Source of the DNA: Sulfolobales archaeon
GTDB lineage: Archaea > Thermoproteota > Thermoprotei_A > Sulfolobales > NBVN01
DNA length: 64,000 nt
Assembly: GCA_026413885.1 (NCBI GenBank)
Contig: JAOAKA010000002.1
Coordinates: 62,001 to 126,000 of the forward strand
Direction of reading: 5' to 3'
Part shown: positions 54,507 to 60,068 of the stretch, piece after piece
How positions within the stretch are numbered: position 1 is the stretch's first letter
How the letters are laid out: the number at the start of each line of letters is the position of its first letter
Notes under the pieces: model-generated
Database searches by the model: none
What the model saw: the letters and a program-made list of their open reading frames with translations, nothing else
What the model was told of the DNA's origin: nothing
Made by a program: the position numbers and the translations under genes

Positions 54507-55844
54507 CTATTTAGAGAGGTTTTCAATCTCACTTAACCTATTCTGTCTATCTCTAAACACATCACCAACTTTCTTATTGTTGCTCACAGGCTGACCTCCT
54601 CCCAGCAAACAGCCCCTAGGACACAGTTCGAAGACTGTTGCTCTCTCTATTTTTATTTTCTGAAGATCTGTCAGAGAGTTTATCTTGGGTAGCTCGATCT
54701 TTCTATATAGTACGTAGTCTGGATTCTCGTCTCTCAGAGAGTGATAGTCCAGCTTCTTAAGAGCTATCTGAATCTCTCTAGCAGTTAGAACTCTAGGAAG
54801 CACTCTCTTCCAAGAAGTACACTGTGTTATGTACGCAGTTCCCGGCGGGATGCTCACTCTGACTTCAGCAATCTCTAGGTCAGGTAGTGTTTTCTGAAGC
54901 AGTAATTTCTCAGCAGGCGATCTAGCTACTAGAACGCTCTTCTCTGCATCAATAACGCTTAGGGGGTCGTAGATTGTCACCCTCTTAAAACCTAGAGCTC
55001 TGAGGCCGCTGACGACTTGAAGTGGGGTTAGTCCTTCAGCTTCAGATATAGATGCTAGAACCTCCGGCTCTACATACGCCTCCACTACGAGTCTTTTTCT
55101 AGCTTCTGCTAACACTCTATCTACATCTAGTCTATAGGAAACAGCACCGGCGGGGCAATATGCTGCACAGAGACCACAGTAGACGCAGTTTGAATTAGCT
55201 AGAGATTCTCCAAATGGTGTAGAAACAAGGGTTTGAATACCTCTATGAACGTAACTCAGTACTTTAGCTCCCACTCTAGAGCATAACTCAATACATCTCC
55301 CACAGACGAAACACTTAGACTGATCGAACCAGATTGGGCCACCGTTAATTACTTTAGTCTCTCTCTCTACGTAGCTAAATCTCTTCCTATATGCTCTTAA
55401 TTCAAAACCTAGCGCAGTCTTCTTAACCAGCTCTAAAACCTCAGCTAGCTGTATTGGACAACCCCGCAGATAGTAATCTACTTTAACAAAGCTGCCTATA
55501 GGTTTAGAAACCCCTGCTGCTCCCTGCACTCCACCTAGATGTGCACATGAACCTAAGGCTACAAGGTATTTAGCCCTACCTCTAACTTCGTAGAGTAGTC
55601 TTACATCTCTCTCACTAACTACAGAACCTTCAACTAGAGCTACATCGACTTCCTCTAGCTCTCTCGATATGCCGGCTAGAGGCCAGTATACTATTTCTAC
55701 TCCAAGTTGTTCTAAGAGATTGAAGAAGTCTCTATTTACTAAATTGTATTCACAGCCGTCGCAGCCTGTTAGAGCTACTATTGCGAGTTTCACTCTACTC
55801 CACCCCTCTAACAATGTGTACCGCGCACGGGATGCATGGGTCAT
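54507..55844 (-). CDS. [NiFe]-hydrogenase small-subunit N-domain fused to 2x[4Fe-4S] and a degenerate [FeFe]-hydrogenase-like C-domain; likely start GTG at 55793
   Basis: LTGCDGCEYNLV, VALVEGSVVSERDV, LGSCAHLGGVQG, LRGCP; CFVCGRCIELC and CVYCGLCAAYC; C-terminal TQCTSWK, LTAREIQIALK, FELCPRGCLLGGGQP. Confidence 0.85.
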   Translation of the reverse strand: MTHASRARYTLLEGWSRVKLAIVALTGCDGCEYNLVNRDFFNLLEQLGVEIVYWPLAGISRELEEVDVALVEGSVVSERDVRLLYEVRGRAKYLVALGSCAHLGGVQGAAGVSKPIGSFVKVDYYLRGCPIQLAEVLELVKKTALGFELRAYRKRFSYVERETKVINGGPIWFDQSKCFVCGRCIELCSRVGAKVLSYVHRGIQTLVSTPFGESLANSNCVYCGLCAAYCPAGAVSYRLDVDRVLAEARKRLVVEAYVEPEVLASISEAEGLTPLQVVSGLRALGFKRVTIYDPLSVIDAEKSVLVARSPAEKLLLQKTLPDLEIAEVRVSIPPGTAYITQCTSWKRVLPRVLTAREIQIALKKLDYHSLRDENPDYVLYRKIELPKINSLTDLQKIKIERATVFELCPRGCLLGGGQPVSNNKKVGDVFRDRQNRLSEIENLSK

Positions 55845-57078
55845 ATGCTCTTACAAGAGACTCCACCAGCTTGCGGATGGCTTCCTCACTAGCACTGTCA
55901 GTGATTAGCTTTCTAACTAGTGCTGTAGCAGATAGCTCTATGTGTTCAGTATTCATAACTGTTGGAGTAACTATATCTGCTCTCGTAACTCTCCGATCTC
56001 TACTGACTTCATAGTAGTGTATCAGCAATCCTCTAGGAGCTTCAACAACACCTAGTCCAGCAGATGCTACCTTATTTGTGAGAACCGGCTCAAGCTTTAA
56101 CTCTCTATGCGATAACTCATCTATACTCTGGATTAAGGAGTCCAACACGATCCTTGATTCAAGTGCTTTAGCATAGATATTAGAGTACGGATTCTCTTTC
56201 AATACTCCCGCATATCTAACTACATATTCTCTCTCACTGCTGTCGAGACCTCCATTCTTTAAGGTGCTCAAAAGCCTCGCTCTCGAGCCGACGTGGAAAA
56301 CTTCATCTATGAAGAGACATTTCCTGCTGTTAGAGTAGTCAGTCCGACGCTCCTTGAAAACCTCTCTGTAGTTATCTGAAGTAACGTAGACATTTCCATT
56401 CGGTGTATCGAGATAGTAGGGTGGGGATCTAGGTATAGTGGTTTTAACAGATTCTGTAAGAGCTGCGTAGAAGGGTGCTGGGTCGGCAATCTCTGGGAGC
56501 TTAATGTCGAGAATCTTCGCTGTAAGGTCTTCGAGTAGAGGTTTTGAAGCTCTGAGTAACTCCACAGCTGACTTTAGCACTCTGGAGTTTATGTAGGTAA
56601 AGAATCTGCCCATAAAGTAGTTGTTTGGTGATGTAAGTCTACCACAGATAAGTCTTATAGCTTTAGTTACGTAGCTATTGATTTCTAGAGTAATCTTCGT
56701 GATGTAATCCAGCTCGTTTTTACCTATATGATCTGGTGCGGCCAATACCCCCAGATGAATTACGTGGTTTTGAACTAACCCTAACTTATTGCATATATCT
56801 CTGAGTTCTGCGATGTCTTTCGATGTCTCTACTCCAGCTATTTGTTCAGCAGCAATAGCAGCAGCCCAAAAGTGGGGGTGGCTACATACTCCACAAATTC
56901 TTGAAGCTATTAGTGGTACTTCACCAATGTCTCGCCCAATAACTAAGCTCTCGAAACCTCTCAAACTGAGTAGGGAACTATATGAGACTCTGACGAGTCC
57001 TCTATCTAGAGCTACTTCTACTTTAGATTCTCCAGCAACTCTATCTACTTCCCAGCCTAGTAGTCTACTTATCTCTAC
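55795..57078 (-). CDS. [NiFe]-hydrogenase large subunit (group 3-like); start codon unresolved, conserved coding extends past the listed 56964 TTG to at least ~57072
   Basis: RICGVCSHPH (L1), DPCIPCAVH (L2). In-frame upstream extension VEISRLLGWEVDRVAGESKVEVALDRGLVRVSYSSLLSLRGFESLVIGRDIGEVP matches the usual N-terminus. Confidence 0.85.
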   Translation of the reverse strand, partial: VEISRLLGWEVDRVAGESKVEVALDRGLVRVSYSSLLSLRGFESLVIGRDIGEVPLIASRICGVCSHPHFWAAAIAAEQIAGVETSKDIAELRDICNKLGLVQNHVIHLGVLAAPDHIGKNELDYITKITLEINSYVTKAIRLICGRLTSPNNYFMGRFFTYINSRVLKSAVELLRASKPLLEDLTAKILDIKLPEIADPAPFYAALTESVKTTIPRSPPYYLDTPNGNVYVTSDNYREVFKERRTDYSNSRKCLFIDEVFHVGSRARLLSTLKNGGLDSSEREYVVRYAGVLKENPYSNIYAKALESRIVLDSLIQSIDELSHRELKLEPVLTNKVASAGLGVVEAPRGLLIHYYEVSRDRRVTRADIVTPTVMNTEHIELSATALVRKLITDSASEEAIRKLVESLVRAYDPCIPCAVHIVRGVE

Positions 57079-57718
57079 TCACCTCAGAAATTATCTTCTT
57101 CAACTCCCCCGGGAGAAAAGACCAGAAGAACTTAGCAGCTGCTTCTAATTTCTCTCCATCTACACCGTGTTTTTCATATAGGTCCCTCATGGAGTCTCTC
57201 CAGAGCTCCGGGTCTTCTATATAGCCTCTACACCCCAAGCAGGGAACTCCATTACGTGTACACTCAGCTGAGCAGCCGGCAGCAGTTAGAGGGCCTAAAC
57301 ACGGCTCTCCCTTAGCAACTAGACAATCGTCTCCAGTGAGAGGACACTCAGAGCAGACTGGGAATTCCCCGAGATTTAACTGCTTTGAGAGATCTAGAAG
57401 AGAGCAGCTAGTCTTCCTTAAACAACTCCAACACTTAATTCTATGGGTTGAGAGGAGGAGCTGGAAGTTCATCCTCCTATATGTATCTAGCTCCCTACTC
57501 TCAGTCACTATCTTAGCTCCATCAGATACTGGGAACTTACACGCAGGCACTACTCTACCGTTTACTAAGACTACGCAGAGTCTACAGGTAGCCTCACTAA
57601 AGAAGTCATTGAGGTAGCACAGCACTGGGACTCTATATCCAGCTTTTTCAACTGCTTCTATTATAGGGACACCGGGAGGTACTTCGACTTCTACTCCATT
57701 AACGTATACTTTAACCAT
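57065..57718 (-). CDS. HoxU/NuoG-like [2Fe-2S]/His-[4Fe-4S] subunit fused to the C-terminal Fe-S domain of a group 3 [NiFe] small subunit
   Basis: N: VPVLCYLNDFFSEATCRLC...C, HRIKCWSCLRKTSC. C: FPVCSECPLTGDDCLVAKGEPCLGPLTAAGCSAECTRNGVPCLGCRGYI. Confidence 0.88.
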   Translation of the reverse strand: MVKVYVNGVEVEVPPGVPIIEAVEKAGYRVPVLCYLNDFFSEATCRLCVVLVNGRVVPACKFPVSDGAKIVTESRELDTYRRMNFQLLLSTHRIKCWSCLRKTSCSLLDLSKQLNLGEFPVCSECPLTGDDCLVAKGEPCLGPLTAAGCSAECTRNGVPCLGCRGYIEDPELWRDSMRDLYEKHGVDGEKLEAAAKFFWSFLPGELKKIISEVSRDK

Positions 57719-57721
57719 ATC

Positions 57722-59542
57722 CTACACCTTCTTAATTGCTCCGAAGGGACATGCGATTAGACATTGACCACACTTAATGCAGATGTCGTAGTTTATTCTA
57801 TGGACTTCTCCCGGAGAGCCGGATATAGCTCCTACCTGGCAGACTCTAGCACACTGTGTACATCCTCTACATAGAGCTGGATCTACTGAATACTTAACGA
57901 GTTTAGCACAGACTTTTGCTGGACATCTTCGGTTAACTACGTGTTCTACATACTCATCTTTGAAGTACCTCAACGTCGAGAGTATCGGATTGGGAGCAGT
58001 TCCACCTAGCGCGCAGAGACTCGATCTAGCTATACTTTCACCTAGTTCTTGAGCTACCTCTATATCTTCTAGAGAAGCTTCTCCACTAGTGAGTCTCTCT
58101 AGTAGGTCACTTAAGTGTCTCATACCGACTCTGCAGGGCAGGCACTTACCGCATGATTCAGCGAGAGTGAAGCTTGTGAAGAATTTAGCTACATCCACCA
58201 TGCAGTTGCTGTCGTCTATCACTACCAGACCTCCAGAACCCATAATAGCTCCATAGCTCTGCAGGCTCTCGTAATCCATCTCGAGGTCCATTAACTCAGC
58301 TGGAATGCAGCCCCCGCTTGGTCCACCTATTTGAACAGCTTTAACTTTCCTTCCCTCTATAGATCCTCCAGCTAGATCGAAAACTAACGTCTTTATCTTT
58401 GTTCCAATAGGTACCTCGTAGACTCCAGTCCTCTTTACAGCACCTGTAACACAGAACATCTTAGTTCCTCGAGACTTCTCAGTTCCGTGCTTTACGAATT
58501 CTTCAACACCAGTCTGAAATATAGTAGCTACATGTGCTAAAGTCTCTACATTGTTGATGACGGTAGGCCTGCCCCAGAGTCCGTGAGTAGCTGGGTAGGG
58601 AGGTCTCTGTCTAGGTCTAGATCTACCTTCGATAGCAGCTATTAGAGCTGTTTCCTCACCACATACGAAAGCACCAGCACTTCTATAGACTTCTACATCG
58701 AAGTTGAAGTTGGAGCTGAGAATGTTCTTCCCTAGAAAACCGAGCTTTCTGGCGTCTTCAACAGCTTTCTCAAGTCTATCGGCCATGAGTGGTTTTTCAG
58801 CTCTTACGAAAATTATCCCTCTAGTAGCTCCAACTGCGTAGCCAGCTATTATAAGTCCTTCTAGAACTCTATGTGGGTCTGATTCCGCTAGAAGTCTATT
58901 CATAAATGCTCCAGGATCTCCTTCATCACCGTTACATATGACATATTTAACGTCGTTCTTCTGCTCGTACGCTATCTTCCACTTTAGCCAGGTTGGGAAT
59001 CCAGCACCTCCTCTACCTCTTAACCCAGAGGTCTTAATGACCTCTATGACTTCTTCCTGCTTCATGTAGAGGGCTTTCTTAAGTCCTAAGTAACCGCCTG
59101 TCTCTATGTAGTCGTAGATCGACTCAGGGTCTACTAGTCCGCAGTTTCTCGATACATATCTAACTTGATATCTCCAGAAATCTACTTCTTCTAGTGCCGG
59201 CGGTCCCCCGGACCCTGTTTTAAATCTAACTGCGGTAGCTTCTGAGAGATCTCCCTCGGAGTAATTCTTAATTATGTGCTCGATCTGCTCAGTCTTCACG
59301 TTTCCATATATAGCTGGCGGCAGGCCTTCTCTAGCTAACTCTATCCACGGATCCATGAAGCACAGACCTGTGCATCCTACTCTATATACCTCGGCATCCA
59401 CTCCGTGTTCTTCAACGACTTTAATGACTTTCCTGTATACCTCTCCCGCTCCAGCTGCTAGAGTGCAGCTCGATATAGGTACTCTAATTCTAAAGCCTCT
59501 ACTGCCGTACAGAATTCTATTTAGAGAAGTTTGTGTGAGCAT
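57722..59542 (-). CDS. NuoF/HoxF/HydB-like flavoprotein with thioredoxin-like N-domain and C-terminal 2x[4Fe-4S]
   Basis: GLRGRGGAGFPTWLKW, CNGDEGDPGAFMNR, AGAFVCGEETALIAAIEGRSRPRQRPPYPA, ESCGKCLPCRVG, CRGCTQCARVC, CIKCGQCLIACP. Confidence 0.96.
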   Translation of the reverse strand: MLTQTSLNRILYGSRGFRIRVPISSCTLAAGAGEVYRKVIKVVEEHGVDAEVYRVGCTGLCFMDPWIELAREGLPPAIYGNVKTEQIEHIIKNYSEGDLSEATAVRFKTGSGGPPALEEVDFWRYQVRYVSRNCGLVDPESIYDYIETGGYLGLKKALYMKQEEVIEVIKTSGLRGRGGAGFPTWLKWKIAYEQKNDVKYVICNGDEGDPGAFMNRLLAESDPHRVLEGLIIAGYAVGATRGIIFVRAEKPLMADRLEKAVEDARKLGFLGKNILSSNFNFDVEVYRSAGAFVCGEETALIAAIEGRSRPRQRPPYPATHGLWGRPTVINNVETLAHVATIFQTGVEEFVKHGTEKSRGTKMFCVTGAVKRTGVYEVPIGTKIKTLVFDLAGGSIEGRKVKAVQIGGPSGGCIPAELMDLEMDYESLQSYGAIMGSGGLVVIDDSNCMVDVAKFFTSFTLAESCGKCLPCRVGMRHLSDLLERLTSGEASLEDIEVAQELGESIARSSLCALGGTAPNPILSTLRYFKDEYVEHVVNRRCPAKVCAKLVKYSVDPALCRGCTQCARVCQVGAISGSPGEVHRINYDICIKCGQCLIACPFGAIKKV

Positions 59543-59561: not shown

Positions 59562-60068
59562 CTACTCTCTAGCTTTAGATCTATAGTTGAAAACCAGTCT
59601 TCTACCTGCTTGTGGTGTGAGTTTTCCATGTACGTATCTCTCAGAGCCGTCTGAAGATAGAACCATAGCTACTGGAGCTAGACTGCAGCAACCAAAACAT
59701 CTAGCTTTCTCAACTGTAAGCAAGCCATCTTCTGTAGTCGATCTTCCATTTGAGAGTCCAGCACTTCTTCTTATAGCTTCATATACTTCAGAAGCACCGC
59801 GGAGATAGCAAGCAGTACCGAAGCAGACGTAGATGATGTACCTACCTACAGGCTCTAATCTAAATTGGTGGTAGAATGTAGCTACATTGAGAACTTCGGA
59901 GAGGGATACCCCCAACTTCTCTGAGACTTCCTCGAGACTCTCTCTCGGTAGGTATCTAAAGGTCTTCTGAATTTCTTGAAGTATCTGCACCAGCCTGCCT
60001 CTATCGCAGCCGTACTTAGAGACTACTTCACCAACTACTTCTCTCGGGTTCAGGCGCCCCCTATACAT
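59562..60068 (-). CDS. NuoE/HoxE/HydC-like [2Fe-2S] subunit
   Basis: ATFYHQFRLEPVGRYIIYVCFGTACYLRGA, CFGCCSLAPV. Confidence 0.93.
   Translation of the reverse strand: MYRGRLNPREVVGEVVSKYGCDRGRLVQILQEIQKTFRYLPRESLEEVSEKLGVSLSEVLNVATFYHQFRLEPVGRYIIYVCFGTACYLRGASEVYEAIRRSAGLSNGRSTTEDGLLTVEKARCFGCCSLAPVAMVLSSDGSERYVHGKLTPQAGRRLVFNYRSKARE

Follow-up and report, generated by a model that had tools for sequence, protein, structure and literature searches.

The window, a stretch of 64,000 nucleotides from a Sulfolobales archaeon, holds a hydrogenase operon on its minus strand in the order hydC, hydB, U, the [NiFe] large-subunit gene and S. The first gene, hydC (59562-60068), encodes a HydC/NuoE-like [2Fe-2S] subunit with a thioredoxin fold, and hydB (57722-59542) encodes a HydB/NuoF-like protein with an FMN/NADH domain, cluster B1, the residues of the B2 site and a C-terminus with two [4Fe-4S] clusters. 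U (57065-57718) and S (54507-55844) are both fusion genes, and the large-subunit gene (55795-57072) lies between them. The large subunit carries both NiFe-binding CxxC motifs, RICGVC (motif L1) and DPCIPCAVH (motif L2), and matches PF00374 as a group 3 large subunit, with the sulfhydrogenase subunit ShyA as its best match. Its gene has an apparent ATA start (57070-57072, minus strand) with a Shine-Dalgarno sequence, GAGGTGA, at 57079-57085; the start column holds ATG, GTG or TTG in 16 relatives and ATA in one other (L025). Two further PF00374 matches in the same genome, of 560 and 387 aa, have ferredoxin- and NuoB-like genes as neighbours and seem to be membrane group 4 hydrogenases or complex I relatives, which would make this operon the sole soluble [NiFe] hydrogenase of the assembly (89% complete).

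The U protein is a HydA N-terminal half that carries the C-terminal domain of a group 3 [NiFe] small subunit. An earlier note on this DNA had described the 217 aa reading frame and quoted its C-terminal sequence, and both are as it gave them. The HydA-type half comprises residues 1-118 (57365-57718) and matches HydA1 (PDB 8a6t) residues 3-122; a phmmer search of PDB sequences aligned residues 5-124 with HydA1 of bifurcating hydrogenases at an E-value of 1.5e-21, and residues 2-119 correspond to positions 1-120 of the NCBIfam family FeFe_hydrog_A6. Residues 119-217 and the stop codon (57065-57364) form the medial/distal [4Fe-4S] domain, as the note had proposed: residues 118-198 match the delta subunit of Pyrococcus sulfhydrogenase I (9nez residues 160-241) with an E-value of 2.9e-19 in the same search, and residues 118-210 correspond to positions 163-255 of the 261 in the NCBIfam family sulfhyd_HydD, so that both families give the same cut at 118-119. 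Among 26 aligned homologues, every ligand of the A1 [2Fe-2S] and the A2 His-Cys [4Fe-4S] cluster is invariant, as are all eight cysteines of the C-terminal domain (122, 125, 132, 140, 149, 153, 160 and 163); an FW motif in the tail is also conserved. The group 1 small-subunit C-terminal domain PF14720 was tried for the moved domain and gave no match, being the wrong family. The AlphaFold model of the single chain has a mean pLDDT of 79.7 and a pTM of 0.64. A fold search with it placed complex I 75-kDa/NuoG-type subunits and HydA on top, with no match from the small-subunit side among the 50 matches listed, probably because each match spans one domain.

S is the counterpart of U, as it joins the N-terminal half of the small subunit to the C-terminal half of HydA. 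Residues 18-150 (55395-55793) hold the proximal cluster cysteines 28, 31, 100 and 129. They are followed by a HydA-type ferredoxin domain with two [4Fe-4S] clusters equivalent to A3 and A4 (55122-55352; cysteines 178, 181, 184, 188, 220, 223, 226 and 230) and by a degenerate [FeFe]-hydrogenase H-domain (54510-55109). This is where the earlier note, which gave S the proximal-cluster half only, has to be corrected, since beyond residue ~157 the chain continues with these two clusters and an [FeFe]-like H-domain. In a profile of 22 proteins, positions 6-153 align to delta 2-156 and positions 157-294 to HydA 121-265; the H-domain gives additional matches at its L3 motif. All 15 cysteines of S are invariant among 22 homologues, and 12 of them sit in standard [4Fe-4S] ligand motifs. 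The single-chain AlphaFold model (mean pLDDT 79.0, pTM 0.66) has full-length HydA and CpI as its top Foldseek matches, while delta matches its N-terminal half. The note was right that the medial/distal domain is missing from S, and no second copy was found there or elsewhere in the 89%-complete genome. The ligands of a group 3 small subunit, which in groups 3b and 3c include medial and distal ones besides the proximal set, are thus all present, but they are split across two chains, with the proximal ones on S and the medial and distal ones on U.

Taken together, U (residues 1-120 align to HydA 3-122, residues 120-213 to delta 161-255) and S make up one HydA plus one small subunit, each covered once and without overlap, which implies a reciprocal exchange of C-terminal halves. 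The suggestion that the small subunit had been cut and its cluster domain moved is therefore correct as to the cut, which falls between the proximal and the medial/distal domains, but the transfer went both ways. Likewise, the fusion partner is a HydA/HoxU-type subunit, as had been suspected in calling it HoxU/NuoG-like, but since the C-terminal half of HydA is now found on the N-terminal half of the small subunit, the parent was of the HydA (BfuA) type rather than a plain HoxU. We propose, with a probability of roughly 0.7, that the product of the operon is a soluble [NiFe] hydrogenase of the HydABC+SL (NiFe-Bfu) type, linked to NAD(H) and probably to ferredoxin, with the C-terminal halves of two subunits exchanged.

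The same split, which the earlier note had suggested looking for in other genomes, recurs across a group of heat-loving archaea. Fused U was collected as 38 distinct sequences from independent assemblies of Thermoproteota and Caldarchaeales MAGs. A full-length copy occurs in 23 of the 216 genomes examined for the order and in 25 loci of named MAGs, whose titles include Desulfurococcales, Sulfolobales, Ignisphaera, Pyrodictiaceae, Thermofilales and Wolframiiraptor. Of 400 genomes taken from the phylum, about 21 contain S, and in one of them (G229) the copy is degraded; there the operon (locus L136, 7775-11868) is fragmented by in-frame stops and frame changes, as in a decaying copy. Wherever the flanking DNA suffices, nearly all loci keep the order hydC-hydB-U-L-S and the strand, in MAGs of Desulfurococcales/Sulfolobales, Thermofilales and Wolframiiraptor (Caldarchaeales). 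Loci L125 and L126 (the latter identical with L057) have U adjoining S with no large-subunit gene between them, and in L126 U and S are followed by an HdrA-like gene and by a separate, complete pair of small- and large-subunit genes.

Relatives in which the halves have not been exchanged also exist. At three loci (L121, L122 and L123), an undivided HydA of 548-562 aa is followed by an undivided small subunit of 238-251 aa and then by a large subunit, and in L123 these are preceded by hydC and hydB. A dedicated search of 400 genomes gave full-length unexchanged matches in these three only; in 36 other genomes the match is confined to the N-terminal part and falls mostly in HoxU-sized proteins. 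In phylogenetic trees, each exchanged domain forms one group, with support of 100/98 for the HydA N-terminal half, 98/100 for the ferredoxin domain and 99/91 for the small-subunit C-terminal domain; the small-subunit N-terminal half is weakly grouped (84/20; 82% of bootstraps). The unexchanged genes stand beside the exchanged ones in the ferredoxin tree (84/98) and in the large-subunit tree (SH-aLRT 83). The small-subunit trees, however, do not place them as specific sisters of the exchanged genes, which implies that the three loci may be cousins and not the direct parental state; it is plausible that the exchanged operon descends directly from the unexchanged one. A 'HOX' label on the short loci L003-L016 and L076 in the large-subunit tree was discarded as a mislabel, because these loci truncate S.

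The unexchanged gene order suggests how the exchange could have come about. Recombination between the adjacent hydA and small-subunit genes would excise the HydA C-terminal half together with the small-subunit N-terminal half as a circle, which would then re-insert behind the large-subunit gene. Starting from the order HydA, small subunit, large subunit, this would yield the exchanged order, i.e. HydA N-half with small-subunit C-half, large subunit, small-subunit N-half with HydA C-half. We give about even odds to a history in which one such event became fixed and was passed on throughout an archaeal phylum, the two chains must complement each other crosswise, and the ancestral order survives in a few lineages. 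Since the exchanged operons can be set against unexchanged ones, the exchange is an event that can be traced and tested.

The Bfu B2-site signature has been published as C438/C476 or Thr/H525/C531/C536 (PMC9304861), and the window HydB has Cys447/Thr485/His534/Cys540/Cys545 with the same spacing; Cys447, His534, Cys540 and Cys545 occur in 15 of 15 homologues. Pfam domains and B2 residues together give HydB the make-up of a BfuB subunit, with FMN/NADH domain, B1 and a B2 site that includes the conserved histidine. The B3/B4 cysteines of the C-terminal pair of [4Fe-4S] clusters are present in the window and in 12 of 15 homologues, and the N-terminal [2Fe-2S] site (B5) of the window protein has three of the usual four cysteines. 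HydB of loci L034, L035 and L036 has neither the C-terminal B3/B4 clusters nor several other cysteines, a sequence feature which suggests a non-bifurcating offshoot. About half of the homologues (L027, L028, L030, L031 and L033-L036) have an extra Cys-rich N-terminal extension, CCxxCWH..PC....C..GPLCH, which the window HydB lacks.

In Acetomicrobium mobile, the NiFe-Bfu enzyme links H2 to NAD(H) and ferredoxin. Given the Bfu B2 signature in HydB, the same reaction is proposed by analogy for the operon in the window, and the chains would assemble into one complex. H2 would be activated at the NiFe site of the large subunit, and electrons would leave through the proximal cluster, pass the HydA-type and/or the moved small-subunit clusters to A2 and A1 and reach the FMN of HydB, which would couple NAD(H) with ferredoxin; the direction of this flow is, like bifurcation itself, a proposal.

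Two electron routes between the proximal cluster and A2 are possible, because S carries HydA-type clusters and a route S1-A3-A2-A1 has been proposed for NiFe-HydABCSL (PMC9304861). By analogy with these enzymes (PMC8880783, PMC9304861), the proximal cluster may pass its electrons to the HydA-type ferredoxin clusters that S also carries and from there by A2 and A1 to FMN, which would leave the moved domain as a branch, that is, a side exit or docking site for a partner such as ferredoxin. The homology of S to the A3/A4 region of HydA, the published route and the conservation of the cysteines and the tail FW motif in the moved domain speak for this reading. Against this stand the lack of a candidate partner and the direct fusion of the moved domain to the A2 domain, which fits an in-line role as well, and the branched wire can be held only tentatively. 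The simple split that the earlier note had in mind is somewhat less probable still. Here the two halves would dock like a canonical small subunit to give one wire running proximal-medial-distal-A2-A1-FMN, with the HydA C-terminal half on S as a bystander. This agrees with the complete ligand sets on both chains and with the full three-cluster small subunits of the unexchanged relatives, but two intact HydA-type clusters right behind the proximal domain, which offer the second route, speak against it. Since HydA, a group 3 small subunit and the bifurcating FMN core would be joined in one complex, the route from NiFe to FMN, in-line or branched, becomes testable.

A further question is whether the H-domain of S could hold a second active site, working next to the NiFe site. 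The L2 cysteine (Cys342) and the L3 cysteines (Cys408 and Cys412) are invariant in a 22-sequence alignment, the unexchanged HydA of L121-L123 keeps one L1 cysteine along with those of L2 and L3, and an exchanged S in L124 (8987-10525) retains an L1-like PCC motif. This copy is a possible intermediate, and L124 (the same gene as L106) branches first among the exchanged copies in the large-subunit tree. Going by the title of Greening 2024, minimal and hybrid hydrogenases of archaea are reportedly active, which was counted in favour of such a dual-site enzyme. However, a serine (Ser309) stands in place of the L1 cluster cysteine in the window, as it does in the remaining aligned copies of the exchanged type except L124, so that S lacks the full set of L1-L3 H-cluster ligands of an [FeFe] hydrogenase; the placement of this invariant serine against L1 rests on the MAFFT alignment. 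A deletion of L1 had been considered and was rejected when a wider alignment with unexchanged HydA showed a shortened region with the cysteine changed to serine. HydG, the only one of the HydEFG maturases that was searched for, was found in none of 25 hybrid-bearing genomes, while one control genome scored above the cut-off; HypD is present in 12 of 13 operon-bearing genomes. The absence of HydG and the loss of the cluster cysteine together imply that H2 chemistry probably takes place at the NiFe site. A functional H-cluster in S is unlikely, and two working sites in one enzyme are very improbable. By analogy with NiFe-HydA, which has the Fe-S cluster A5 in place of the H-cluster (PMC8880783), the H-domain probably no longer handles H2 and would hold at most a [4Fe-4S] cluster with three cysteines, possibly with the serine. 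The exchange may account for the retention of the FeFe-hydrogenase fold in archaea without HydG.

An assembly chimera or annotation artefact, for which the odd architecture alone might speak, was rejected, as identical junctions recur in many independent assemblies from several orders.

Hybrid FeFe/NiFe hydrogenases of archaea and NiFe-Bfu have been reported before; Greening et al. 2024 (Cell) reportedly describes archaeal complexes that fuse parts of [FeFe] and [NiFe] hydrogenases. No description of the reciprocal exchange was found in the open literature, a scope that does not include this article. To our knowledge, a half-for-half reciprocal exchange between two subunits of one enzyme is a rare route in protein evolution.

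Among known systems, the group 3b sulfhydrogenase SHI of Pyrococcus furiosus (PDB 9nez) provides with its delta subunit one of the best matches for both small-subunit halves. Delta is one chain, whereas the small subunit in the window is split over U and S, and we know of no HydABC-type subunits among the partners of delta. Hox hydrogenases (HoxEFUYH, group 3d) resemble the operon in combining NuoE-, NuoF- and NuoG-like with NiFe subunits. However, HoxU ends in its own ferredoxin domain and HoxY is without a medial/distal domain, as seen in L143 and L145, and Hox is without the Bfu B2-B5 set (PMC8880783). NiFe-HydABCSL/NiFe-Bfu of A. mobile (PDB 7t2r, PMC8880783) likewise unites hydABC homologues with NiFe small and large subunits, and shares an FeFe-related HydA C-terminal domain, with A5 for the H-cluster, and a HydB with the Bfu B2 site. 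In that enzyme, HydA and HydS are each an undivided chain of their own, and the 179 aa HydS is without a medial/distal domain, whereas the operon in the window has exchanged the C-terminal halves and kept that domain.
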